Below are positions 8,563 through 62,886 of a stretch of 64,000 bases of DNA, piece by piece (within the stretch, counting starts at the first letter, position 1; the number at the start of each line of letters is the position of its first letter). The stretch is from the IMG/VR virus record IMGVR_UViG_3300037294_000399, positions 32,308 through 96,307 of that record. The stretch is one strand, 5' to 3'. The notes below the pieces were generated by a model, which saw nothing but the letters and a program-made list of their open reading frames with translations, was not told the origin of the DNA and did no database searches. Source of the DNA: a virus. The translations under genes were made by a program, and so were the position numbers.

Positions 8563-9567
8563 ATGGAAATTAAAAACTATAAAGAAGAAATAATTAAAAA
8601 TGCAGAAGTTGGTGTTGTTGTGGGGAGATTTCAAACAAACCGATTACATACAGGACATATTGACTTGATTAGCCACGTCCTATCAAATCATAAAAAAACT
8701 GTACTTATCCTAGGTGTGTCTAGAGTACAAAACACCAAGAAAAACCCTTTGGATTTTGCTAGTCGTAAAGCTATGATTCAAAAATTGTTTCCTAGTTTAA
8801 TGATTTTACCAGTAATGGACCAAAGATACGATGAGAAATGGAGTTCAGAAATTGATTCAGCTATTTCTATGCCGTTTGGTGAAAAGAAAACAGTTATCTA
8901 TGGTAGCCGTGATTCATTTATTCCTCATTACAAAGGTAAGTTTCAAGTTATTGAGTTAGAAGCTATTCCTTACCATAACGCCACAAACATTAGAGCAGAT
9001 ATTGCTAAAGAAACTATTGACTCTACTGATTTTAGGTCTGGTGTTATCTACTCAGCATTCAATCAAAGACCAGTTTCTTATCCAACAGTTGATATCTGTG
9101 CATACAACGATGATGGTGAGATTCTTATGGGTAGAAAACCTAACGAGAAGTATTGGAGATTCGTTGGTGGGTTTGTTGACCCGACAGATGAAAGCTATGA
9201 AAAAGCAGCTTTGAGAGAGTTTCATGAAGAAACTGGTGGTAATTGTGTTATCAGCGACTTAAAATATATCTTAAGTCACAGAGTAAAAGATTGGAGATAT
9301 GCCAAAGAAGAGTCTGGGATAATGACTACTTTATTCTTGGGGCGCAGAAATATGGGTTACGCAAAAGCTAGTGATGATATCGCAGATGTTAAATGGTTTC
9401 CAATTAGGGAGTTCAGCAACTTTGATACTGTTAGAACTAAAGTAATGCCAGAACACCGTGAAATGATGTTAGCTTTGGTTAACAAAGTGTACAGCGAAAA
9501 ACTTATACCAAATATTGGTGAAAGATTAGCTGAAAGAACTGATAATGTAACTTACATTGGTGAATAA
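8563..9567 (+). CDS. nadM: bifunctional NMN adenylyltransferase / Nudix hydrolase
   Basis: 334 residues. Residues 15-180 form a nucleotidyltransferase domain (VVVGRFQTNRLHTGHIDL with the HxGH signature; later NIRADIAKE), which joins ATP and nicotinamide mononucleotide to make NAD+. Residues 200-320 form a Nudix domain with the box GGFVDPTDESYEKAALREF..E, probably an ADP-ribose pyrophosphatase. The same fusion occurs in other phages next to NAMPT. It begins four bases after the GIY-YIG stop, so the gene now depends on read-through or the element at 7744 for expression. Confidence 0.92.
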   Translation: MEIKNYKEEIIKNAEVGVVVGRFQTNRLHTGHIDLISHVLSNHKKTVLILGVSRVQNTKKNPLDFASRKAMIQKLFPSLMILPVMDQRYDEKWSSEIDSAISMPFGEKKTVIYGSRDSFIPHYKGKFQVIELEAIPYHNATNIRADIAKETIDSTDFRSGVIYSAFNQRPVSYPTVDICAYNDDGEILMGRKPNEKYWRFVGGFVDPTDESYEKAALREFHEETGGNCVISDLKYILSHRVKDWRYAKEESGIMTTLFLGRRNMGYAKASDDIADVKWFPIREFSNFDTVRTKVMPEHREMMLALVNKVYSEKLIPNIGERLAERTDNVTYIGE

Positions 9568-9587: not shown

Positions 9588-12111
9588 ATGGGTTTACAAA
9601 AAAAAGTAATTGAAAAATTAGAAACTGCAATAGAAAACAAAGATTGGGTGTCTATTGAAGATATTCAAAAGTATCTTAGCAAAGCATTAACAAAACCGAA
9701 CAACTTGATTTTGTGTTCAGATGCTTACAAATATTCACATCACAGATTCTATGGTGGTGAAATGACCAAGATGGTATCTTACTTGGAATCAAGAGGTGGT
9801 AAATTCTCTGAGACAGTATTCTACGGATTACAAATCTTCTTAAAACAATACTTAGAAGGTGTTGCCATTACGAAAGAAGAAGTTGATGAAGCATTTGACT
9901 ATTTAGGTACAAAGCACGGTGTGTTTGGCCGTGACGATGTATTCGATAGAACAAAATTCGATTATATTATCGAGATGTATGATGGTAAATTACCTATCAG
10001 CCTAAAAGCAGTTCCAGAAGGTTAACAAATGTAGCCATTCATACTAGTAATAGTATGTCTAAAGAAATCTAATTGCTGGGAACCCCTTAGAGCCTTTAAC
10101 ACTACAACGTAGATAGCAATATCAAGCGTGAATGTTTGAAAAGATAAAGGATTGGGAAATCAGCAGCGAAGTTTCTAAATTTAATTTCAATTAATTAGTG
10201 CGTTTTTAAAAGTTTATGATATTTATTAATAAACGCATTAATCATGAGAGAGTATAAAAAAGGGAAAGAATCACCATTGTTTAAAGATTTAACTGGTGAA
10301 AAGTTTGGTAAATTAACAGCTAAAAACTACATTTACGATGACACAAAGAAATATAAAAAACATATGTGGATTTGTGATTGTGATTGTGGTAATGAAGCTA
10401 AAGTTAGAACCAATGAATTAACAAAGGGTGAAAGAACACAGTGTAAACAATGTTCAATCAATGAAGTATCAAAAACTAGAACAAGACCAGATAATGGTGC
10501 ATTAATAACAAGAGTTATTAAACAGTATAAAGCTGGTGCTAAAAGAAGAGGTTATGAATTCTTATTAACAGATGAAAAACTAAAGGAATTAATTTTTTCA
10601 AATTGTTATTATTGTGGTGAAGAACCAAAAATAAATAAGGGTGAAGAACGTTATTTTAGAGGTGGTTTAGAGTTTAAAAGAAATGGAATTGATAGATTGA
10701 ATAATAAAATTGGTTATACAAATGAAAATGTTGTTACTTGTTGTGAAACATGTAATAGAGCTAAAATGTGTTTAGAGCATGATGATTTTTTAACCCTTAT
10801 TAATAAAATATACTTAAATTTAGAAAAACGTTCAACGACTATCCCACAAGGGAGTACAGAACAAGCTAATGGTTCTGGAAATGGTTTTGACCCTAGTAAA
10901 TAGGGTTTTGATATAGTCTAGTCTTTATCTAAAGATAAAGCAGTTCGTAAGAGAACGTATTCAACTGTTGCGAGTTGAGTAGAATGTAAACGTCAGTAGT
11001 TGGAACTAAAAATGTTTTGTTCGTTATCGAATCTTTAGATGAGAACTGCGCATGGTTAACCAATTTTTTAGAAACTATCTTGTTGCAAGTATGGTATCCA
11101 ATTACGGTTGCTACACTTTCAAGAGAAGTTCGTAAAATCGTAGATGCTAGTTTTCAAAAAAACACATCATATGATACTGGGTTAAGAGAGTTTCTGGTTG
11201 ATTACGTGTTGAATGACTTCGGTTTCCGTGGTGTATCGTCTGTACAATCAGCTGGTATTGGTGGGTCTGCTCACTTGGTAAACTTTAGAGGTTCTGATAC
11301 AATCATGGCATCTAAATACATCAGAGATTACTACAATACAGAAACAGTTTATGGGTTATCTATCCCAGCAACTGAACACTCTATCATGACACTTAAAGGT
11401 GAAGAAGGTGAATTGGAAATGATGAAACGAGTACTTACAACATTCCCTACTGGGTTAGTTGCGTGTGTATCTGATTCATACAATATCTTTCGTGCATGTT
11501 CTGAGTATTGGGGAACTGAATTGAGAGACTTAGTACTATCTCGCCCATCAGAACCAGGAAATCAACTAGTTATCCGTCCAGATTCTGGTGACGTGTTAAT
11601 GACATTGAAAGAAATTTTCACTATATTATTCGACAAATTCGGTTACACAGTAAACGATAAGGGTTATAAAGTGTTACCACCACAAGTTCGTGTGATTCAA
11701 GGTGATGGTGTTAATCTAGATTCAATTAAAGAAATCTACGCATTGTTAGAGGAAGAAAAAATATCACCAGAAAACTTAGCTTTAGGTATGGGTGGTAAAT
11801 TATTACAAGCAGTGGACCGAGACACATGTGCATTTGCTACCAAAGCTTGTACAGCCGTAGTTGACGGTGTTGAAGTTGAAGTACAGAAAAATCCTACCGA
11901 AATGGACGAGAATGGGAATTTAACAAAAAGTTTCAAAAAGTCTAAAAAGGGTAGATTGAAGTTGGTAAAAACTGATAACGGTTATATTACTTTAACTTCT
12001 AAAGATGAAGGATTCGAAGAAGCTAAGGATGAACTCGTAGAGGTTTTCCGCATGGGAGATATTCTTAAAGAGTGGTCTTTTGAGGAAATCCGTGAGAGAG
12101 CCAAAATTTAA
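9588..12111 (+). CDS. nadV: nicotinamide phosphoribosyltransferase, split by a group I intron
   Basis: Exon 1 is 9588-10022 (145 codons, with the LCSDAYKYSHHRFYGGEMTK start typical of NAMPT). Exon 2 is 10993-12111. Joining GGT at 10020-10022 to TCA at 10993 gives PEG-SVVGTKNVLF, matching the family consensus and placing a U before and a G at the end of the intron, as group I splicing needs. The spliced product has 517 residues, in the range of phage NadV. It converts nicotinamide and PRPP to NMN, feeding the upstream NMNAT. The extreme C-terminus may have been exchanged during the homing event downstream. Confidence 0.9.
10218..10234 (+). promoter_or_regulatory. AT-rich upstream element (late-type candidate)
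   Basis: GATATTTATTAATAAAC, 10 bp before the intron HNH start; nearly identical to 26537-26553. Confidence 0.45.
10244..10903 (+). CDS. HNH homing endonuclease of the group I intron
   Basis: 219 residues. A four-Cys zinc motif (CDCDCGNEAKV...CKQC) near residues 40-75 precedes an HNH-type core: NCYYCGEEP, NGIDRLNNKIGYTNENVVTC, CETCNRAKMCL. Its last 25 codons run over the intron catalytic core (the P3/P7 bases), as in T4 introns. Cuts intron-less alleles to spread the intron. Confidence 0.9.
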   Translation: MREYKKGKESPLFKDLTGEKFGKLTAKNYIYDDTKKYKKHMWICDCDCGNEAKVRTNELTKGERTQCKQCSINEVSKTRTRPDNGALITRVIKQYKAGAKRRGYEFLLTDEKLKELIFSNCYYCGEEPKINKGEERYFRGGLEFKRNGIDRLNNKIGYTNENVVTCCETCNRAKMCLEHDDFLTLINKIYLNLEKRSTTIPQGSTEQANGSGNGFDPSK

Positions 12112-17611: not shown

Positions 17612-17815
17612 ATGATAGAATCAGTTGATTATTTTGGTGGTACAAGTGGTTTAAAAGAACAACAGAAGAAAGATAAAATAAAAAAAGATTACTGTGACAA
17701 TAATAAAATAAAGTTAATAATAATAAAATACAATGAAAAAACAGATAATTTATTAACTAAAATAAATAAAATAAATAAAATAAATAAAATTTTAAAAAAT
17801 AATGGTAAAAATTAA
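17612..17815 (+). pseudogene. C-terminal remnant of a VSR-like homing endonuclease
   Basis: VDYFGGTSGLKEQQKKDKI and KKDYCDNNKIKLIIIKYNE match the ends of the VSR-like proteins at 12127 and 19397. The catalytic part is missing. Its tail is a run of AATAAA-type triplet repeats (INKINKINKI). It replaces the start region of the next operon. Confidence 0.75.
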
Positions 17816-19415
17816 ATTTAAAGATTTAACTGAAATTGAAATTGAGAAATTTAGGTTAGAATATGTTAATAGGTTAGAAAATAATTTAACAGTTGAGAAA
17901 TTAGCAATTAAAATTAGTAATGACTTAGGGTTATCGGAAAGAACCGTTAGAAAATGGTTTAAAAAATTAAACTTCAAAGAAAAAGTTGAAATTGAACCAG
18001 AACAGTATGTAAAAGCCAAAACAAGAGTCCATGACGGGACTAAAAAACGTTTTATAATAAGTTGGGCCCAGAACAATACACCTGTTCATACTGGTTTGAT
18101 GAAAAACTTAGAAGCTTATGGTGAATTTATCGATGCTGATATCCATATCATAGCTGGTAGGTATAGAAACCCTACTAGTATGTGGACAAATCAACAAGAA
18201 GAATCAGAATTTTGGGTTTCAGAGGTATTACCATACTTAGACGCTAATAGACATGACATACATAAGTATGTGTCTATTATGTCAGATATTAAGATTCAAC
18301 CAACTGCTGTGAACCCAATGACTGGGTTACAAGCGTTGAGTGGTATTAATTCTTGTGTGTTTGGTAGTCCAAAGGTTCAATTAGAAATGATTCCAGTATT
18401 AGAAGGTAACAACCCTAAAATGATGACTACTACTGGTGCGGTAACTAAAAAGAATTATACTGATTCTAAAGCTGGTAAAACTGGTGACTTCCATCATACA
18501 TTTGGTTTTGTTATCGTTGAGATTAAAGATGATAATACTTTTTTCCTAAGACAGGTAACTGCTGATGACAAAACAGGTAACTTTACTGATTTATATTATC
18601 GAGTTGAAAAAGGTGAAGTAAGTGAAGTAACTAAATTTGCTGCGGCTATCTTAGGTGATATTCACTACGGACATCATGACCAAGAAGTTTTAGATACAAC
18701 GCTTAGTTTATTTGAACGAGTAAAACCACAGCACGTTATATTACATGACGTATTTGATGGTTCTTCAATTAGTCATCATGAGATGAAAGACCCTTTCATT
18801 CAATACGGTAAAGAAATATCTGGCACCAACGACTTAGGTAAAGAGGTTGATTTTATGTTGGAATCTTTAAAGTCGTTTGAAAAGTTTGATAATGTGGTTA
18901 TTGTTAGAAGTAATCATGATGATTTCTTAGACCGTTGGCTTAAGAATGAAGATTGGAAGAAACAACCAACATACAAAAATTCTAGGCTTTATATGAAAAT
19001 GTCTGATATGTTATTAGAACAATATGCTAATGACCCATACAACGTAAAAGGTGTAATCCCAAGTATCATCAATCAGAAGTTTCCTAAGTTTATCACACTA
19101 GGTCGAAGTGCTTCTTATCGAGTTAAAGATTGGGAACTGGGTCAACATGGTGATATTGGTTCAAATGGTAGTCGAGGTTCATTATTACAATTCAGAAAAT
19201 TAAACACTAAGATTGTTGTTGGACATTACCACTCGCCTGGTCGTAAGGACGGAGCGTTAGCCGTAGGTACATCAACAAAATTAAGGGTAGGTTATAACAG
19301 AGGTGCGAGTTCATGGTTACAATCACATGTTATCATCCACACAGATGGTCGAGCCCAACACATAAATTTTATGCTAGATAAAGACGGTAACTTGGGTTAT
19401 ACTACTTTTGAATAA
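17802..19415 (+). CDS. A1-like metallophosphoesterase with N-terminal helix-turn-helix
   Basis: 537 residues. Residues 27-60 look like a helix-turn-helix (KLAIKISNDLGLSERTVRKW). The C-terminal part has LGDIHYGHHDQEVL, HDVFDGSSISHHE, VRSNHDDFLDRW and VGHYHSPGRK, the metal-binding set of calcineurin-like enzymes. The order and length resemble phage T5 A1, involved in host DNA degradation. The HTH overlaps the remnant at 17612, so the extreme N-terminus may be chimeric. Confidence 0.75.
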   Translation: MVKIKFKDLTEIEIEKFRLEYVNRLENNLTVEKLAIKISNDLGLSERTVRKWFKKLNFKEKVEIEPEQYVKAKTRVHDGTKKRFIISWAQNNTPVHTGLMKNLEAYGEFIDADIHIIAGRYRNPTSMWTNQQEESEFWVSEVLPYLDANRHDIHKYVSIMSDIKIQPTAVNPMTGLQALSGINSCVFGSPKVQLEMIPVLEGNNPKMMTTTGAVTKKNYTDSKAGKTGDFHHTFGFVIVEIKDDNTFFLRQVTADDKTGNFTDLYYRVEKGEVSEVTKFAAAILGDIHYGHHDQEVLDTTLSLFERVKPQHVILHDVFDGSSISHHEMKDPFIQYGKEISGTNDLGKEVDFMLESLKSFEKFDNVVIVRSNHDDFLDRWLKNEDWKKQPTYKNSRLYMKMSDMLLEQYANDPYNVKGVIPSIINQKFPKFITLGRSASYRVKDWELGQHGDIGSNGSRGSLLQFRKLNTKIVVGHYHSPGRKDGALAVGTSTKLRVGYNRGASSWLQSHVIIHTDGRAQHINFMLDKDGNLGYTTFE

Positions 19416-32267: not shown

Positions 32268-32786
32268 ATGAAAAATGTGAAAACAATTTTGATGTTAATA
32301 GTCCTAGGTTTTATCGTATTAACATCATTTACAAAAACTACAAAACATACTTTTGTCAAAGCGACATGGTATGACATGCATGGAAGAATAAGTGCTTCTG
32401 GTGTTAGTATGCACCGAGATTCAGCTACCTGTGCTTACAACTCTTTACCCTTGGGTACTAAATTATTAATAACCAACACTCAAAACAATAAACAAACCGT
32501 GTCGATTATTACTGATAGAATGGGTAATAAAAAACCAATGATAATTGATTTGAGTTACAAAGCTTTTGGTAATATTGCCAATCATAAGACAGGTGTTATA
32601 AATGCTAAAATTCAAATTATCTATATATTTATTAATGTGGATACAAAAATAAATAAAACAAACGAAATTCATTTAAGAATCACAGATTCTATTAAAACTG
32701 AATTGCAGCAATATTGTTTGGAAAACAATATTGGTATGTCTAAATTAATTACTAAACTGATTCTAAAAGAATTAGAAAATAAATAA
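32268..32786 (+). CDS. RlpA-like lipoprotein domain fused to a ribbon-helix-helix domain
   Basis: ATG 32268 opens MKNVKTILMLIVLGFIVLTS, a signal or anchor segment, then a double-psi beta-barrel of the RlpA type (KATWYDMHGRISASGVSMHR, CAYNSLPLGTKLLITN, SIITDRMGNKKPMIIDLS). RlpA proteins bind or cut denuded peptidoglycan. After INAKIQI the frame passes into an RHH protein (NEIHLRITDSIKTELQQ...MSKLITKLILKEL) that belongs to the following TnpB. An exported enzyme and a DNA-binding protein in one frame is explained by insertion, not by function. Confidence 0.75.
   Translation: MKNVKTILMLIVLGFIVLTSFTKTTKHTFVKATWYDMHGRISASGVSMHRDSATCAYNSLPLGTKLLITNTQNNKQTVSIITDRMGNKKPMIIDLSYKAFGNIANHKTGVINAKIQIIYIFINVDTKINKTNEIHLRITDSIKTELQQYCLENNIGMSKLITKLILKELENK
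32637..32786 (+). CDS. ribbon-helix-helix protein of the TnpB cassette
   Basis: Likely GTG start (VDTKINKTNEIHLRIT), 49 residues, in the RlpA frame. Strand EIHLRI and GMSKLITKLILKEL match the other cassette RHH proteins. An ATATATTTATTAATG element lies directly upstream. Ends in an ATG overlap with tnpB (AAATAATGA). Confidence 0.65.
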   Translation: MDTKINKTNEIHLRITDSIKTELQQYCLENNIGMSKLITKLILKELENK

Positions 32787-33952
32787 TGATTAGAACCTCT
32801 AAACATATTATCTCAAATGCTAATCAAGGGAAGCTTGCTTCCCTTGACCAAGTATTTATTGATTATAAACATGATTTAGAAATATATATTAATTATATCA
32901 TAGAAGGTATATTACCCCTTAAACCTAATTTATCTAGCAAATTACTCCCTACAGAAGTAATAAAACATAGTAGATATAAACAAATAATTTATAAACAAGC
33001 ATCAGAAATTATAAGAAGTCAATTAGATAAATCAAAGAAAAAAAGATATTCATCATATAAAAAAATATATACATATATGATGAAGAATCATCCTGATTCT
33101 TCATTCTGTAAAACTAAATTTTCTGACCTATCATTAAATAATATATTAAAAACTAAATATTTCACTAAACCTAATCTAAATAATGTTAGTATTAATTTAG
33201 ATGAAAGATTTTTTAACATACAAAATGGGAACCATTTTGATAAGTTTGTTAATCTTAAATTACCTTATTTTAATGAAAAGGGCGCTCGTGCCCTACAAAT
33301 AAATATTCCATTTAATTATCATAAACATTCGTTATCATTTAAACATAATACGTTTAAATTAAGAAATAATATACAAATTAAGAAGGTAAAAAATAATTAT
33401 TATATTGCGTTAATTTGGGAAAAAGAGATTGATATTAAAACCAATGGCAAAGCCATTGGAATTGATATGGGTTATAAAAAATTAATTGTTACATCTGATA
33501 ATCAGTTTATTAATGGTGATTTAAGTGATATATATTCTAAAATAAGCAGATGTAAACAAGGTAGTAATGGATTTAAACGAAGTTTAAATCATAGAGATAA
33601 TGAAATAAATAGGTTATGTAATTTAATTAACATCGAAGATGTTAATAATATAATCATAGAAGATTTAGTATCAGTTAAAACTGGTAAAAAATATTTTACA
33701 AATAAAATACAAAGATGGTCTTATGTCAAGACCATTGATAAAATAAATAGAATATGTGAGGATAACGGTATTATGCTGGTGAAGGTTTCACCAGCATATA
33801 CCTCACAAACATGTTCTAGTTGTGGTGTTGTAGATAAGAAGTCTCGCCAAGGCGAGAACTTCAAATGTACAAGTTGTGAATATGAAATAGATGCTGATTA
33901 TAATGCAAGTATTAATATTTATGATAGAGGGATTTATAGTTTCTCTAACTAA
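32786..33952 (+). mobile_element. tnpB: TnpB RNA-guided nuclease gene (no TnpA)
   Basis: 388 residues. RuvC-like residues: IGIDMGYKKLIV (first Asp), NNIIIEDLVSV (Glu) and CEYEIDADYNASINI (final Asp), with the zinc ribbon TCSSCGVVDKK...FKCTSCEYE between them. The N-terminus is divergent from IS605 TnpB. Coupled to an RHH gene and no transposase, so it behaves like a homing nuclease. Several coding GC-rich hairpins (for example near 33470 and 33845) punctuate it. The guide RNA would be expected across its 3' end, about 33900-34020. Confidence 0.85.
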
Positions 33953-40817: not shown

Positions 40818-41696
40818 ATGAAGCAATTAAAAATTTCACACAAACTTACAAACAGAGAAAATGAATCTTTCAAACAATACTTGAAAGAAATTGGAGAGGT
40901 TGCTATCTTTTCAACACCAGAAGAAGAATACGCTGTTGCTGAAAGAGCAAGTTTGGGTGACCAAAAAGCTATCGCTGAACTAATTGAACGAAACTTACGT
41001 TTTGTTGTTTCTGTGGCTAAACAATACGTTAGTGATGGTATTCCATTGGAAGACCTTGTAAATGAGGGTAATATTGGGTTGGTAATAGCTGCTGAGAAGT
41101 TTACACCAACTATGGGTTATAAATTCATTTCATACGCTGTATGGTGGATTAGAAAGATTATCTTAGAACACATCGCTAAGAATGGTAAGATGGTTCGTAT
41201 CCCAGCAAACAAGTTGAATAGCTTATCTAAGTTGAATAAAAAGATTGCTGAACTTGAACAAATAAAAGGTCGTAAAGTAGATGTTCAAGAAGTAATGGAA
41301 GAATTTGGTAACGAAATAAACGATGAAGATTTCATGTTCTTAGATGTATTAAGCACATATAATATGGATTCATTGGACCGTCAAGTTGGTAACGATGAGG
41401 GTGGTTCAGTGTTAGGTGAATTAATTGCTGATAATTCATTTAAAGCAACTGACCATCTATTGAATGATTCAAATATAACTAACGAAATCAATACAATTCT
41501 TGGTATTTTGTCTTTAAGAGATAGAGAAATTATGGAATGTTTATTTGGGTTAAATGGTAATAGTCCTATGACTCTCAATGAAGTTGGTGATAGAATGGGT
41601 ATAACTCGTGAAAGAGCACGTCAAGTTCGTGAAAAATCACTTAAATTATTAAGAATAAACCCTAGAGTTCTTTTAGCTTACAATGAACTTGGTTAA
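40818..41696 (+). CDS. sigma-70 family RNA polymerase sigma factor (primary-type)
   Basis: 292 residues, the short length of Bacteroidota primary sigma factors. Region 2: RNLRFVVSVAKQYVSDGIPL, NEGNIGLVIAAEKFTPTMGY, FISYAVWWIRKIILEHI; region 3: RIPANKLNSLSKLNKKIAEL; region 4: LSLRDREIMECLFGL and MGITRERARQVREKSLKLLR. The N-terminus (MKQLKISHKLTNRENESFKQ) is also Bacteroidota-like. Could redirect the host enzyme to a phage promoter class such as the AT-rich elements listed here; that link is inference. Confidence 0.92.
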   Translation: MKQLKISHKLTNRENESFKQYLKEIGEVAIFSTPEEEYAVAERASLGDQKAIAELIERNLRFVVSVAKQYVSDGIPLEDLVNEGNIGLVIAAEKFTPTMGYKFISYAVWWIRKIILEHIAKNGKMVRIPANKLNSLSKLNKKIAELEQIKGRKVDVQEVMEEFGNEINDEDFMFLDVLSTYNMDSLDRQVGNDEGGSVLGELIADNSFKATDHLLNDSNITNEINTILGILSLRDREIMECLFGLNGNSPMTLNEVGDRMGITRERARQVREKSLKLLRINPRVLLAYNELG

Positions 41697-54864: not shown

Positions 54865-54905
54865 ATATGTGAACTACCCACCCACGCCAGAGGCGATGGG
54901 ATGGG
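54865..54905. repeat. hairpin at the 3' end of the TnpB element
   Basis: CCCACCCACGCC-AGA-GGCGATGGGATGGG folds with single-A bulges and overlaps the last codons of tnpB; likely right-end hairpin and part of the guide RNA. Confidence 0.6.
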
Positions 54906-56049
54906 CTTCAAGGGTTAACGCTCCAACTAATGTTGGCAACTTACCTTGATTTTTAAGAGTATGTTCCGTACTCAAGATATTTTTTAAAGCAAAAGATTTT
55001 ATGTTACAAGCGGCATTTACATCACGGTCTAATACAGAATTACATCCTTTACAAGTCCATTCACGGTCTTTTAATTGTAGTTCTTTGTTTATACCACCAC
55101 AGTTACCACAAGTTTTTGATGATGGTGCAAAACGTCCTATTCTTAGGATATTTTTACCATACCAATCAGCTTTGTATTCCAACATAGTTACAAAAGTTGA
55201 CCAACTTACATCATTAATGGCTTGTGCTAAATTGTGGTTCTTAACCATATTTTTTACCGCTAAAGTTTCAAGTGCAATAGTTTGGTTCTCACTAATTAAT
55301 TTACTTGATAGTTTATGTAAAAAATCTTTGCGTTTGTTTACTACCTTTTCATGTAGTTTAGCAAGTTTCTTTTTAGTACGCTTACCTTTGTTCTTTGAAT
55401 ATTTTCGTTGTACATATTTTAATTTATCCTGTGCTTTACGTAAGTATTTATGGTTTTCAATTTCAAGTCCATTGGAAGTAACCAAAAAAGACTTAATTCC
55501 TAAGTCCACCCCAATAGCAGTTTCTTCTTTTATTGCTACTTTTTGTGGAATAATCTCATTAGTATCAACTAATATAGAAGCAAAATATTTACCTGTTGGA
55601 GTAACACTAATAGTTGCACTCTTTATAGTTCCATTAATTGGTCTGTGTAAAACAATTTCAATACCATCTTTAAATTTTGGGATTATCAAAAAGTTGTTTT
55701 CTAAAAGAACATTTTGTGGTACGGCAAAAGATTGTCTGCCTTTATGTTTTGATTTGAATTTAGGGAAACCAGCACCTTTGAAAAATTTCTTAAAAGCAAT
55801 ATCCATATTTTGGATGGACTGTTGTAAGGATTGGCTATTTACTTCTTTCAGCCACCCACATTCTTTTTTAAGTTCAGGGAGTTGTTTGATTAAATCGAAA
55901 GGTGAAAAATTGTGTTTGGAGCCTAAATATGCGGAGTTCTTTGTTTCTAAAGCTAAATTATACACGAATCTGCTACCACCAATATGCTTGGCAATCAACT
56001 CTTTTTGTGAGTTGGTCGGATACAATCTATATTTAAAACCTTTAAGCAT
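54874..56049 (-). mobile_element. tnpB: IS200/IS605-type TnpB nuclease
   Basis: 391 residues, canonical TnpB: MLKGFKYRLYPTNSQKELIA start, IGVDLGIKSFLVTSNG (RuvC Asp), SENQTIALETLAVKNMVKNH (Glu), zinc ribbon SSKTCGNCGGINKEL...WTCKGCNSVLDRDVNAACNI (final Asp). No TnpA nearby. Higher GC and different codon use than neighbours show recent arrival. Flanked on both sides by related CCCA...TGGG hairpins, so an element of about 54.86-56.19 kb is likely. Confidence 0.92.
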
Positions 56050-60371: not shown

Positions 60372-61523
60372 ATGAAAGAAGAATTAACAAAACAAGAAGA
60401 GGCGTTAACATTGGTAGTAAGAGACAAATGGATAAATAAAGCCTACAATGATTGCTCAATGGGTATTGACAAATCAAAATTTGAAACAGGTATAAGTTGG
60501 TTATATAATAACCTTGTTAGTTTACCTAACCCACAAGTTATCTATTGTGATTCGATAATTGATGCTATTATTAAAATAACTATGTTTAAGGATTTTAATA
60601 TGGATGTATCAGAATACCCAACTATTTTTGAAAAATATAAAAATAGTAAATTAAAATCCGATTTTTTAAAAAAAATGGATGAAAACAAAGAATTGAAAAG
60701 TTCATACATTGGGTGGTCAAATTTTGGTTGGATTTCGTTTTATGATTATTTCACACAGATTGGTGTGTTAAATGATGAAAAGTTCAATATGTACCAATCA
60801 TTAATTGAGTCAAATGTTTTTGAAACGTTTGAATTTGAAAATGTTGTTTTCGCTGTACAACCACCTAAATACATTCTTTCTGAAAATTTATTGCCTCACA
60901 ACACAGAGGATTTTGCGATTGAATTTAATGATGGTACTGGTTGCTATTTTATCAATGGTTTAAATGTTGATGCTGATTTATTTTTAAAGTTGAAAAATAG
61001 AAAGTATACATTTAGTGATTTTATTAAGGAAGAGAACGAAGAAACCAAGTCAATGATTTTACTTTACATTGAAAGTAGAGATGGCACAGAAGCTGTTTTT
61101 GACTTCATGCGAGATAATCTAAAACAGGTTGATTCATTTATGAATGATACTAAAAATGAATATTTGGAAGGCACAACTAGGTCTAACAGAATTGGTGTTT
61201 ACACACTATTTAAGGGTCAAATAAATGACGTAAATATTGCATATGTAAGGTGTTATTGCCCATCAACAGATAGAATGTTTTTTTTAGGTGTTGAGCCAAG
61301 TTATGACTCCGCTAAAGATGCTATCGCTAGTTTGTACAGAGTACCTACTATTTTAAAAAATAATATTGTTAGTATTAGTAGACAAGGTGAGAAATTTTCA
61401 ACTATATTTGATGATGATATTACCTATAAATTAGAAAATGGTGAATTTAGTAATGATGAACTTCAACGTTACTCTAGTTTATCGGGTAACGATTACTTCA
61501 AATTAATGACTTATGAATTTTAA
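60372..61523 (+). CDS. DUF6745-like protein without its internal repeat
   Basis: 383 residues from ATG 60372. VVRDKWINKAYNDCSMGIDK, NPQVIYCDSIIDA (Cys59-Asp-Ser), GWSNFGWISFYDYF (119-127) and DFAIEFNDGTGCYFINGLNV follow the DUF6745 order as I know it. In many members a tandem tetrapeptide repeat (xxSV or xxQV) lies between the CDS motif and the W..FYD motif; here that interval (residues 62-112) is ordinary sequence. Directly downstream are genes made of that very repeat. Overlaps the first of them by 11 bases, so one operon. Function unknown. Confidence 0.7.
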   Translation: MKEELTKQEEALTLVVRDKWINKAYNDCSMGIDKSKFETGISWLYNNLVSLPNPQVIYCDSIIDAIIKITMFKDFNMDVSEYPTIFEKYKNSKLKSDFLKKMDENKELKSSYIGWSNFGWISFYDYFTQIGVLNDEKFNMYQSLIESNVFETFEFENVVFAVQPPKYILSENLLPHNTEDFAIEFNDGTGCYFINGLNVDADLFLKLKNRKYTFSDFIKEENEETKSMILLYIESRDGTEAVFDFMRDNLKQVDSFMNDTKNEYLEGTTRSNRIGVYTLFKGQINDVNIAYVRCYCPSTDRMFFLGVEPSYDSAKDAIASLYRVPTILKNNIVSISRQGEKFSTIFDDDITYKLENGEFSNDELQRYSSLSGNDYFKLMTYEF

Positions 61524-61812
61524 TATAGGTAAATCAATAAAAGATAAAGTAAGGAATTCAGTAAGTGATTCAGTAAATGGTTCAGTAAGGAATTCAGTAA
61601 GGAATTCAGTAAGTGATTCAGTAAAGAAGTCAGTATTTAAATCAGTAAGTAATTCAGTATGGGATTCAGTAATTGATTCAGTATGGGGTTCAGTAAGGAA
61701 GTCAGTATTTAAATCAGTAAGTGATTCAGTAAGGAAGTCAGTAAGGAAGTCAGTAAGTGATTCAGTATGGGATTCAGTAAGTGATTCAGTAAGTGATTCA
61801 GTAAAATTTTAA
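61513..61812 (+). CDS. xxSV tetrapeptide-repeat protein 1
   Basis: 99 residues. Leader MNFNIGKSIKDKV, then about 21 tandem tetrads of the form xxSV (RNSV, SDSV, WDSV, RKSV, FKSV...) and a short end KF. DNA is a 12-base repeat around TCAGTA. Starts inside the DUF6745-like gene. Positions 1-2 of each tetrad vary among RN, SD, RK, WD, FK, ID, WG; S and V are nearly invariant. Confidence 0.85.
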   Translation: MNFNIGKSIKDKVRNSVSDSVNGSVRNSVRNSVSDSVKKSVFKSVSNSVWDSVIDSVWGSVRKSVFKSVSDSVRKSVRKSVSDSVWDSVSDSVSDSVKF

Positions 61813-61815
61813 ACA

Positions 61816-61833
61816 ATGATACTAGGTAAATAA
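61816..61833 (+). pseudogene. abortive repeat-gene start
   Basis: ATGATACTAGGTAAATAA reads MILGK-stop. It is the start of the repeat-gene leader (MILGKSIKDK) cut off, probably by deletion. Confidence 0.6.
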
Positions 61834-61836
61834 ACA

Positions 61837-62046
61837 ATGAAACTAGGTAAATCAATAAAAGATAAAGTAAGTGATTCAGTAATTGATTCAGTATGGGATT
61901 CAGTAATTGATTCAGTAAGTGATTCAGTAAGGAAGTCAGTAAGTGATTCAGTAAGGAAGTCAGTAAGTGATTCAGTATGGGATTCAGTAATTGATTCAGT
62001 AAGTGATTCAGTAAGGAAGTCAGTAAGTGATTCAGTAAAATTTTAA
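61837..62046 (+). CDS. xxSV tetrapeptide-repeat protein 2
   Basis: 69 residues: leader MKLGKSIKDKV, then about 14 xxSV tetrads and KF at the end. Uses the same tetrad alphabet as protein 1, and long stretches are identical at DNA level, so copies recombine or were recently duplicated. Confidence 0.85.
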   Translation: MKLGKSIKDKVSDSVIDSVWDSVIDSVSDSVRKSVSDSVRKSVSDSVWDSVIDSVSDSVRKSVSDSVKF

Positions 62047-62055
62047 ACAATAAAT

Positions 62056-62301
62056 ATGAGTAGTATGGAAAAATTAAATGTGGGTGTAAATGTAGCACCA
62101 AGTAGTACAAGTGGTCACTTCATCAAAAACGCTAAAAAAGTAGTAGATATTGATGCAGTAAATGAAACGTTCTTAGTTGAGGGTGAGTCTGTTTTAACAA
62201 CAGAAAATCACACAACTTTAGAACAAAAGAAAAGTTGTTTAATCACAACACAAGTTGTTTACAATCCTTTGAAAGCGGTTTACGAAAAGTCAAAAGATTA
62301 A
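62056..62301 (+). CDS. hypothetical protein between repeat genes
   Basis: 81 residues, MSSMEKLNVGVNVAPSSTSG; no repeat. VDIDAVNETFLVEGESVLTT and ends with a basic tail. Followed by a terminator. May be a partner of the repeat proteins; function unknown. Confidence 0.65.
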   Translation: MSSMEKLNVGVNVAPSSTSGHFIKNAKKVVDIDAVNETFLVEGESVLTTENHTTLEQKKSCLITTQVVYNPLKAVYEKSKD

Positions 62302-62310
62302 TTAAATTAG

Positions 62311-62347
62311 GTGCAGAGGGAAAAATAATAACCTTCTGCACTTTTTT
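62311..62347 (+). terminator. intrinsic terminator inside the repeat cluster
   Basis: GTGCAGAGG/CCTTCTGCAC stem with T6. Confidence 0.85.
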
Positions 62348-62356
62348 ATTAAAACA

Positions 62357-62536
62357 ATGATACTAGGTAAGTCAATAAAAGGTAAAGTAAGGGGTTCAGT
62401 AAGTGATTCAGTAAGTAATAAAGTACTTGATAAAGTACTTGATTCAGTAAGTGGTTCAGTATGGTATTCAGTATGGAATTCAGTATGGAATTCAGTAACG
62501 GATTTAATGCCAAAAATAAACAATGATACTAGGTAA
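62357..62536 (+). CDS. xxSV tetrapeptide-repeat protein 3
   Basis: 59 residues: MILGKSIKGKV leader, then tetrads RGSV, SDSV, SNKV, LDKV, LDSV, SGSV, WYSV, WNSV..., and a degenerate end (TDLMPKINNDTR). It reads through the start of protein 4, overlapping it by 14 bases. The tetrads here include xxKV variants. Confidence 0.78.
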   Translation: MILGKSIKGKVRGSVSDSVSNKVLDKVLDSVSGSVWYSVWNSVWNSVTDLMPKINNDTR

Positions 62537-62681
62537 ATCAATAAAAGATAAATTAAGGAATTCAGTATATAATTCAGTACGTGATTCAGTATATAATTCA
62601 GTACGTGATTCAGTATGGTATTCAGTAAGTGATTCAGTAAGGAAGTCAGTAAGTAATTCAATACCAAAGATAAAACGATAA
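62523..62681 (+). CDS. xxSV tetrapeptide-repeat protein 4
   Basis: 52 residues: MILGKSIKDKL leader, tetrads RNSV, YNSV, RDSV, YNSV, RDSV, WYSV..., end SNSIPKIKR. Confidence 0.82.
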   Translation: MILGKSIKDKLRNSVYNSVRDSVYNSVRDSVWYSVSDSVRKSVSNSIPKIKR

Positions 62682-62685
62682 AACA

Positions 62686-62886
62686 ATGAAACTAGGTGAG
62701 TCAATAAAAGATAAATTAAGGAATTCAGTATGTGTTTCAGTAAGTGGTTCAGTAAGTGATTCAGTAAGGAATTCAGTATGGTATTCAGTAAGTGATTCAG
62801 TAAGGAAGTCAGTAAGTAATTCAGTAAGTAATTCAGTAAGTGATTCAGTAAGTGATTCAGTACCAAATATAACACAACAATCCTAA
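62686..62886 (+). CDS. xxSV tetrapeptide-repeat protein 5
   Basis: 66 residues: MKLGESIKDKL leader, about 12 tetrads, end PNITQQS. Four bases after protein 4. Confidence 0.83.
   Translation: MKLGESIKDKLRNSVCVSVSGSVSDSVRNSVWYSVSDSVRKSVSNSVSNSVSDSVSDSVPNITQQS

Follow-up and report, generated by a model that had tools for sequence, protein, structure and literature searches.

Phage proteins with short coding repeats of variable copy number have been described in a few cases. In gp54 of mycobacteriophage Tweety, a tetrapeptide tract encoded by a 12-bp unit combines two fixed alanines with variable G/W/Q and S/Y positions, and its copy number differs between phages (PMC2884959). The protein acts in counter-defence, with escape mutants that gain or lose repeats and are tuned to the Phrann or MichelleMyBell prophage defence (PMC9262239, PMC8549241). 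Bordetella phage BMP-1 carries a further coding repeat of variable copy number, VR2 of bbp36, which is dispensable for growth (PMC2884959). The Pfam family DUF6745 (PF20530), which corresponds to PHROG family phrog_31813, was not named in the literature searched, nor was its motif printed in any paper found. Here we describe a locus at positions 60372-62886 of a 64,000-nucleotide stretch (positions 32,308 to 96,307 of IMG/VR virus record IMGVR_UViG_3300037294_000399; the whole stretch is referred to as the window), in which a DUF6745-like gene without internal repeats is accompanied by five mini-genes encoding tandem tetrapeptides of the form x1-x2-S-V (xxSV). Sequence comparison shows that this kind of tract lies either in cis or in trans beside the same pair of genes, the two states excluding each other, and that they alternate several times on the tree of the DUF6745 domain.

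DUF6745 was sampled from 80 phage loci as well as from 17 contigs of bacterial or archaeal origin. Canonical DUF6745 proteins (D) of both phages and bacteria contain a period-4 tract (T) in cis, which follows the N-terminal part, precedes the 'HDA.WL.FYDFF' motif and is built on a lineage-specific core dipeptide (SV, QV, QL, NI, SL or AT). An internal tetrad tract, given as frequent in bacterial members by an earlier note on this DNA made from the sequence alone, is thereby borne out in phage and bacterial members. In GC-rich cis tracts, R, W and G together account for 85% of x1 residues. A small neighbour gene (Q; phrog_27831), with consensus YRQGDVLI...GE.TGH.H...EH..I.LP.G.Y.V..QREY.PE.IR.V.D, adjoins canonical D in most loci with room to show one. 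The D-Q pair is found in named phages, i.e. Microcystis phage LMM01 (gp174, gp175), Mycobacterium prophage prophiGD102-1 and a siphovirus from Manatee Spring. The LMM01 pair is located between the uracil-DNA glycosylase and DNA polymerase genes, and a passage of PMC5780444 places gp173 and gp178 among the middle-class genes. Scanning of the D-Q neighbours showed no one partner gene to be prominent, though recombination genes are enriched and many neighbours act in recombination or replication: YqaJ/RecE exonucleases are the commonest, accompanied by single RecT, ERF, Sak4, helicase, primase and methylase matches.

A minority of lineages display a split arrangement, with D lacking the tract and nearby mini-genes encoding it. 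The size of these arrays ranges from 5 genes in the window to 39 leaders in phage L002, the latter counted to the contig end and hence at least 39. Arrays also occur in L200/L005, L236/L237, L238, L240, L242, L245/L246, L248 and L249, and in L243 and L241 (xxNV), L250 and L253 (xxQV), L252 (xxAV/SV) and L234 (xxAV). In the GC-rich L188, two mini-genes lie directly behind the DUF6745 gene, the second preceded by AAAGGAGG. Leader and tail are specific to each phage (e.g. MNKIND...DYFKQK, MTLKDSV...IKSHDT, MNIEKEI...EYEY and MILGKSIKDKV...P[KN]IK). Counting non-redundant loci with intact D by manual inspection, and with L188 added, arrays were found beside 13 of 28 tractless D genes and 0 of 50 tract-bearing ones (Fisher p=1.7e-7). 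One of the contributing scans targeted a trans-type DUF6745, enriching for arrays; in the neutral scan alone, which was not directed at arrays, the corresponding counts are 3/6 and 0/about 38 (p=0.0015). Four cis loci that had been flagged automatically as having arrays were rejected as contig-edge or alternative-frame artefacts. When the trans label is mapped on a quick tree built from the DUF6745 domain, it requires 7 changes, at least 4 of them forced by well-supported branches; the tree gives no polarity for the cis/trans change. The proposal of the earlier note that the repeat moved from cis to trans is consequently upheld in part: a trans tract does occur beside tractless D in several lineages, but the direction is not given by the tree. 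The linkage of repeat open reading frames (ORFs) to the DUF6745 gene, on which that note had made its interpretation depend, is seen in relatives.

In the window all members of the module are encoded on the + strand. The tractless DUF6745-like gene (60372-61523; 383 amino acids), assigned by profile, BLAST and alignment, is overlapped at its end by the start of mini-gene 1 (61513-61812; 99 amino acids, 21 tetrads). An abortive mini-gene start encoding MILGK and a stop (61816-61833; ATG ATA CTA GGT AAA TAA) separates this from mini-gene 2 (61837-62046; 69 amino acids, 14 tetrads). Between mini-genes 2 and 3 sits an 81-amino-acid gene that is absent from the earlier note (62056-62301) and is discussed below. 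Mini-gene 3 (62357-62536; 59 amino acids) has about 6 tetrads, interrupted by SNKV/LDKV variants, and is overlapped by the start of mini-gene 4 (62523-62681; 52 amino acids, 9 tetrads), followed by mini-gene 5 (62686-62886; 66 amino acids, 12 tetrads). The abortive start at 61816 reads ATGATACTAGGTAAATAA; an identical remnant is present in L002, and it resembles what the deletion of a mini-gene would leave behind. The window end is the end of the 96,307-bp IMG/VR contig.

This layout agrees with the earlier note in the repeat-free gene, the five xxSV ORFs and the single abortive start, all present as placed, as well as in the 12-bp DNA period of the tandem tetrads, which was verified by Tandem Repeats Finder (TRF). 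The range of 8-21 tetrads given there is correct at its upper bound only, about 6-21 being measured. Similarly, the common leader M(K/I)LGKSIKDKV is recovered, as M(K/I)LG(K/E)S or its stump, in four of the five mini-genes and the abortive start, but mini-gene 1 opens with MNFNIGKSIKDKV. No other xxS[V/I] run of at least 4 tetrads was found in six frames of the 64-kb window.

Whether the window gene belongs with DUF6745 depends on the profile used. The Pfam model PF20530 gives 12 bits (E 0.13), below the 27-bit gathering cut-off, and the gene is thus not a Pfam member. When a hidden Markov model (HMM) built from six other phage DUF6745 domains was run over the window ORFs, it matched the gene with E 3.7e-11 over residues 133-250 of the 402-amino-acid ORF. 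The profile check put forward in the earlier note therefore fails with Pfam and succeeds with the phage-built model. Pairwise BLAST against the DUF6745 protein of L005, another phage in which a clear domain (E 1e-50) lies beside a similar mini-gene array, gives E 3e-8. The most direct comparison is with the 476-amino-acid protein of L133, which aligns right from its N-terminus (VRDEWINAA/VRDKWINKA) through W.(S/A)FYD.F..IG(I/V)L and contains 44 xxSV pairs in cis at the precise site where the window gene has none. The period-4 tract before the HDAxW motif, typical but not universal in DUF6745, is hence absent from the window gene and present in trans. Judged by these alignments, the window gene is a distant DUF6745 relative, and we term it DUF6745-like.

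The 81-amino-acid gene is the top window ORF for three Q profiles, with weak scores (E 0.05-0.2; 1-5 of 2000 shuffles reach its score), and its position in the module matches that of relatives. On the basis of this rank and place, it is probably a short, divergent member of Q (phrog_27831-like). An 88-amino-acid Q relative (E 8e-5) was also found in L004, a phage with scattered xxSV genes and no detected D. The same phage encodes a 224-amino-acid protein (L264:1165-1839, - strand), the middle and end of which vaguely resemble the C-terminal half of DUF6745 before a Q-like 'IIRQGDCILI' motif appears; all scores are weak, and the protein is possibly a rearranged DUF6745/Q.

Across the pooled SV arrays, position 3 is S in 93% and position 4 is V in 93.5% of tetrads, with x1 dominated by W (22%), R (21%), S (15%) and Y (10%), and x2 by D (34%) and N (30%). 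The S and V codons are near-frozen within each phage (TCA 62/62 and GTA 62/62 in the pooled window tetrads) and differ between phages (TCT GTA in L109, TCT GTT in L104, TCC GTC in L188). These differing codons indicate that the SV motif is kept at the protein level, and the units inside one array are homogenised. Since SV is preserved through the differing codons, we rejected the idea that the 12-bp repeat acts at the level of DNA. Mutagenesis of x1/x2 in the style of a diversity-generating retroelement was also set aside because the adenine-to-any spectrum is not matched, x2 in cis tracts being D/A with little G or V; no search was aimed at a reverse transcriptase.

Comparison of the window with its near relative L002 reveals a marked difference in rate between the parts of the module. 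D differs at 8 of 1152 nucleotides and the Q candidate at 1 of 246, whereas the mini-gene at the same place encodes 99 versus 57 amino acids with differing x1/x2, and the arrays contain 5 versus at least 39 genes. L236 and L237, which are 99.6% identical over 21 kb, differ within the array by lengths of 12 and 36 bp; one further gap, of 1 bp, lies outside it. These sequence comparisons show much faster turnover in the array than in D or Q, via 12-bp steps and the loss or gain of whole mini-genes. The suggestion that the array serves as a rapid diversity store is therefore supported, both by the length shifts in 12-bp multiples and by the differing contents of near-identical phages.

AlphaFold2 models mini-protein 1 as a single helix spanning residues 5-98 (predicted local distance difference test, pLDDT, 83; predicted template modelling score, pTM, 0.37). 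In the model of canonical L162 the DUF6745 parts flanking the tract mostly score above 90 and the tract about 40. The notion that the tract completes the DUF6745 fold is not supported by this low-confidence excursion from an otherwise confident domain; the model is consistent with the cis tract being a removable excursion that the domain may not need. An all-helix reading of T is held loosely, given that 77% of x2 residues in the SV mini-proteins are D/N/S/G, that x1 is G in a quarter of tetrads in GC-rich cis tracts, and that the cis tract is modelled with low confidence; a beta-solenoid is possible. Foldseek searches with the DUF6745 model gave no PDB match at E<=0.001 and only DUF6745-type proteins in BFVD, and PDB profile searches with Q and D gave no matches.

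Several variants of D were observed in passing. A different low-complexity tract (AARAAWDAWDA...) occupies the tetrad-tract site of DUF6745 in L143, L193 and L196, and in L193 the whole Q-DUF6745 pair is tandemly duplicated. In other DUF6745 genes (L229:7359-8603, L204:7572-8621 and L159:3035-4071), a frameshift or stop interrupts the frame in the tract or beside it; these are either assembly errors or natural cis/trans intermediates. Two phages with mini-gene arrays encode REDGPAI/WYKDG repeat proteins (L138:1396-1881, L137:1294-1860); their motif LHxxxGPAIxYxDG occurs once within DUF6745, which suggests that the domain contains one repeat of this type. Finally, an xxSV tract in cis is found in an unrelated phage family (L026:489-1292, L093:4023-4739, L100:496-1257 and L118:8684-9508); its N-terminus is MC(K/Q)FFS... 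in three members out of four, its C-terminus is ...LWE.GLVPSFDGKTWRLH, and no Pfam, NCBIfam or PHROG family matched it.

We favour, as probably correct, a reading in which the arrays supply variants of the tract that act in trans, as a repertoire serving the D-Q pair. In its favour are the cis/trans exclusivity around D-Q, the recurrence of arrays on the D tree, the preservation of the motif in differing codons, the fast turnover of the arrays, the recombination genes enriched near D-Q, and the Tweety gp54 precedent. The phage module consists of three parts: D (DUF6745-type), the small partner Q, and T, a tract whose surface positions x1 and x2 vary on a fixed core dipeptide. Most phages keep T within D; those of the window type have T separate and multicopy beside a tractless D, as mini-genes that share a leader and tail and differ in tract length and sequence. 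The mini-proteins would act in trans for the tractless D (with Q). We infer a physical association with D/Q, with D as the probable binding partner, such that one phage could make many alternative D-Q-T complexes at once and would have, in place of a single tunable tract, a repertoire standing ready in its array. Use in counter-defence or host interference, with tract length and sequence tuning the target, is put forward more tentatively and by analogy. Given the Tweety gp54 precedent and the xxSV tract in the unrelated L026/L100 family, we propose by the same analogy that tetrapeptide tracts may be tunable interaction modules of several phage proteins.

A more specific version, in which a common D-Q core presents interchangeable mini-proteins from a rapidly recombining array, would give dozens of counter-defence specificities per genome, the cis phages being the one-specificity form; we regard this as rather doubtful. 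In a structural alternative, the mini-proteins would serve as the subunits of, or rulers for, a polymer or bundle (long helices or a solenoid held via the core dipeptide) nucleated or capped by D/Q; the many copies would then provide dosage and a range of lengths, not a variety of targets. The continuous helix predicted for mini-protein 1 agrees with this, as do the core dipeptide (SV, NV, QV or AV), leader and tail common to the mini-proteins of one array, which are expected if they co-pack. However, x1/x2 are strongly variable and W/R/Y-rich, resembling an interaction surface more than a lattice, the model confidence is low (the pTM given above), the cis tract is not modelled with confidence, and virion genes are not dominant around D-Q. 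We consider it unlikely. Of similarly low probability is that the arrays are an independent phage gene family (decoys or inhibitors) without a physical link to D, their linkage being explained by a shared accessory region. The arrays of L004 and L046 with no detected D on the contig, the tract in the unrelated family and the different tetrapeptide of Tweety gp54 are in line with this; the cis/trans exclusivity around D-Q in several lineages, and the arrays that directly overlap or flank D and Q, argue against it. Quite improbable is a neutral or selfish expansion in which a 12-bp coding repeat spread and fragmented into functionless extra ORFs, since, for all that 12-bp slippage, near-identical units, many copies and the abortive start fit it, about 39 L002 ORFs are open with leader and tail retained and 99.7% of SV in a single register, SV is conserved across phages in different codons, and the arrangement evolved repeatedly beside D-Q and is absent beside tract-bearing D.

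A number of observations weigh against the repertoire reading that we favour. No array is in view for some tractless D genes (L214, L226/L228, L231, L255, LMM01 and several bacterial ones), hence D can exist without T. Conversely, the contigs on which L004 and L046 show arrays but no detected D are incomplete, L047 has a doubtful D match only, and judging from L004 (with its Q relative) and L046 arrays may stand alone. The tract in the L026, L100 and L118 proteins implies that T is not D-specific. In the D tree, the window D and that of L002 sit on a very long branch; the window Q assignment is a probable one. In addition, Tweety gp54 lacks homology to either D or Q, so that its function bears on the module as an analogy only.

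As far as we could find, there is no description of a repeat tract that is recurrently split off from its host protein and encoded instead by many tiny genes in an array. This arrangement joins three uncharacterised pieces, DUF6745, phrog_27831 and the xxSV genes, as one module in many phages and some bacterial genomes. Taken with Tweety gp54, it suggests that phages use tetrapeptide tracts generally as a device that can be tuned. The natural cis/trans switch means that the relation of tract number and sequence to target is testable by comparison of arrays, and not only by mutation of a single gene. For annotation, the tiny repeat ORFs of such arrays are probably genes and call for caution.

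Elsewhere in the window, two genes belong to the phrog_506 'transposase' family (54874-56049, - strand, E 2e-119; 32786-33952, + strand, E 8e-30). A nicotinamide phosphoribosyltransferase-like gene (11017-12111), matched from profile position 134 and perhaps short at its N-terminus, forms a phage NAD salvage pair with a cytidyltransferase/NUDIX fusion (8563-9567). Genes for a phrog_1745 'DNA transfer protein' (17802-19415; E 6e-151) and a phage RNA polymerase sigma factor (40818-41696) are also present.

When set against known systems, the module is not a member of any characterised one, and no described counterpart of its gene architecture was found. Pfam, PHROG and PADLOC matches of the mini-proteins were rejected as low-complexity noise, the PADLOC defence models yielding weak chance matches on repeats only. 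The VR2 repeat of BMP-1 bbp36, compared by its description in PMC2884959 only, is likewise a phage coding repeat of variable copy number, but has a 24-bp unit and lies in cis. The MC(K/Q)FFS...LWE.GLVPSFDGKTWRLH family shares the identical xxSV tract with the window, yet carries it in cis, is not DUF6745 and was seen without accompanying arrays. Tweety gp54 (L267, Tweety EF536069, 2145-3269; AA[GWQ][SY] tract), with Che8 gp57 and PMC gp51, is the nearest system worked out by experiment and resembles the window arrays in that its tetrads are encoded by a 12-bp unit, keep two residues fixed while the other two vary, and change in number; in contrast, only one gene is involved, its tract lies in cis on a core of AA rather than SV, and no mini-gene array has been described for it. 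Homology of gp54, which has no Pfam family, to D or Q was rejected as no profile match was obtained. DUF6745 (PF20530) itself shares a homologous core domain with the window module, and its canonical members combine a period-4 tract with a Q neighbour; the window protein falls far below the Pfam cut-off and lacks a tract of its own, the tract being encoded beside it by 5 separate genes.

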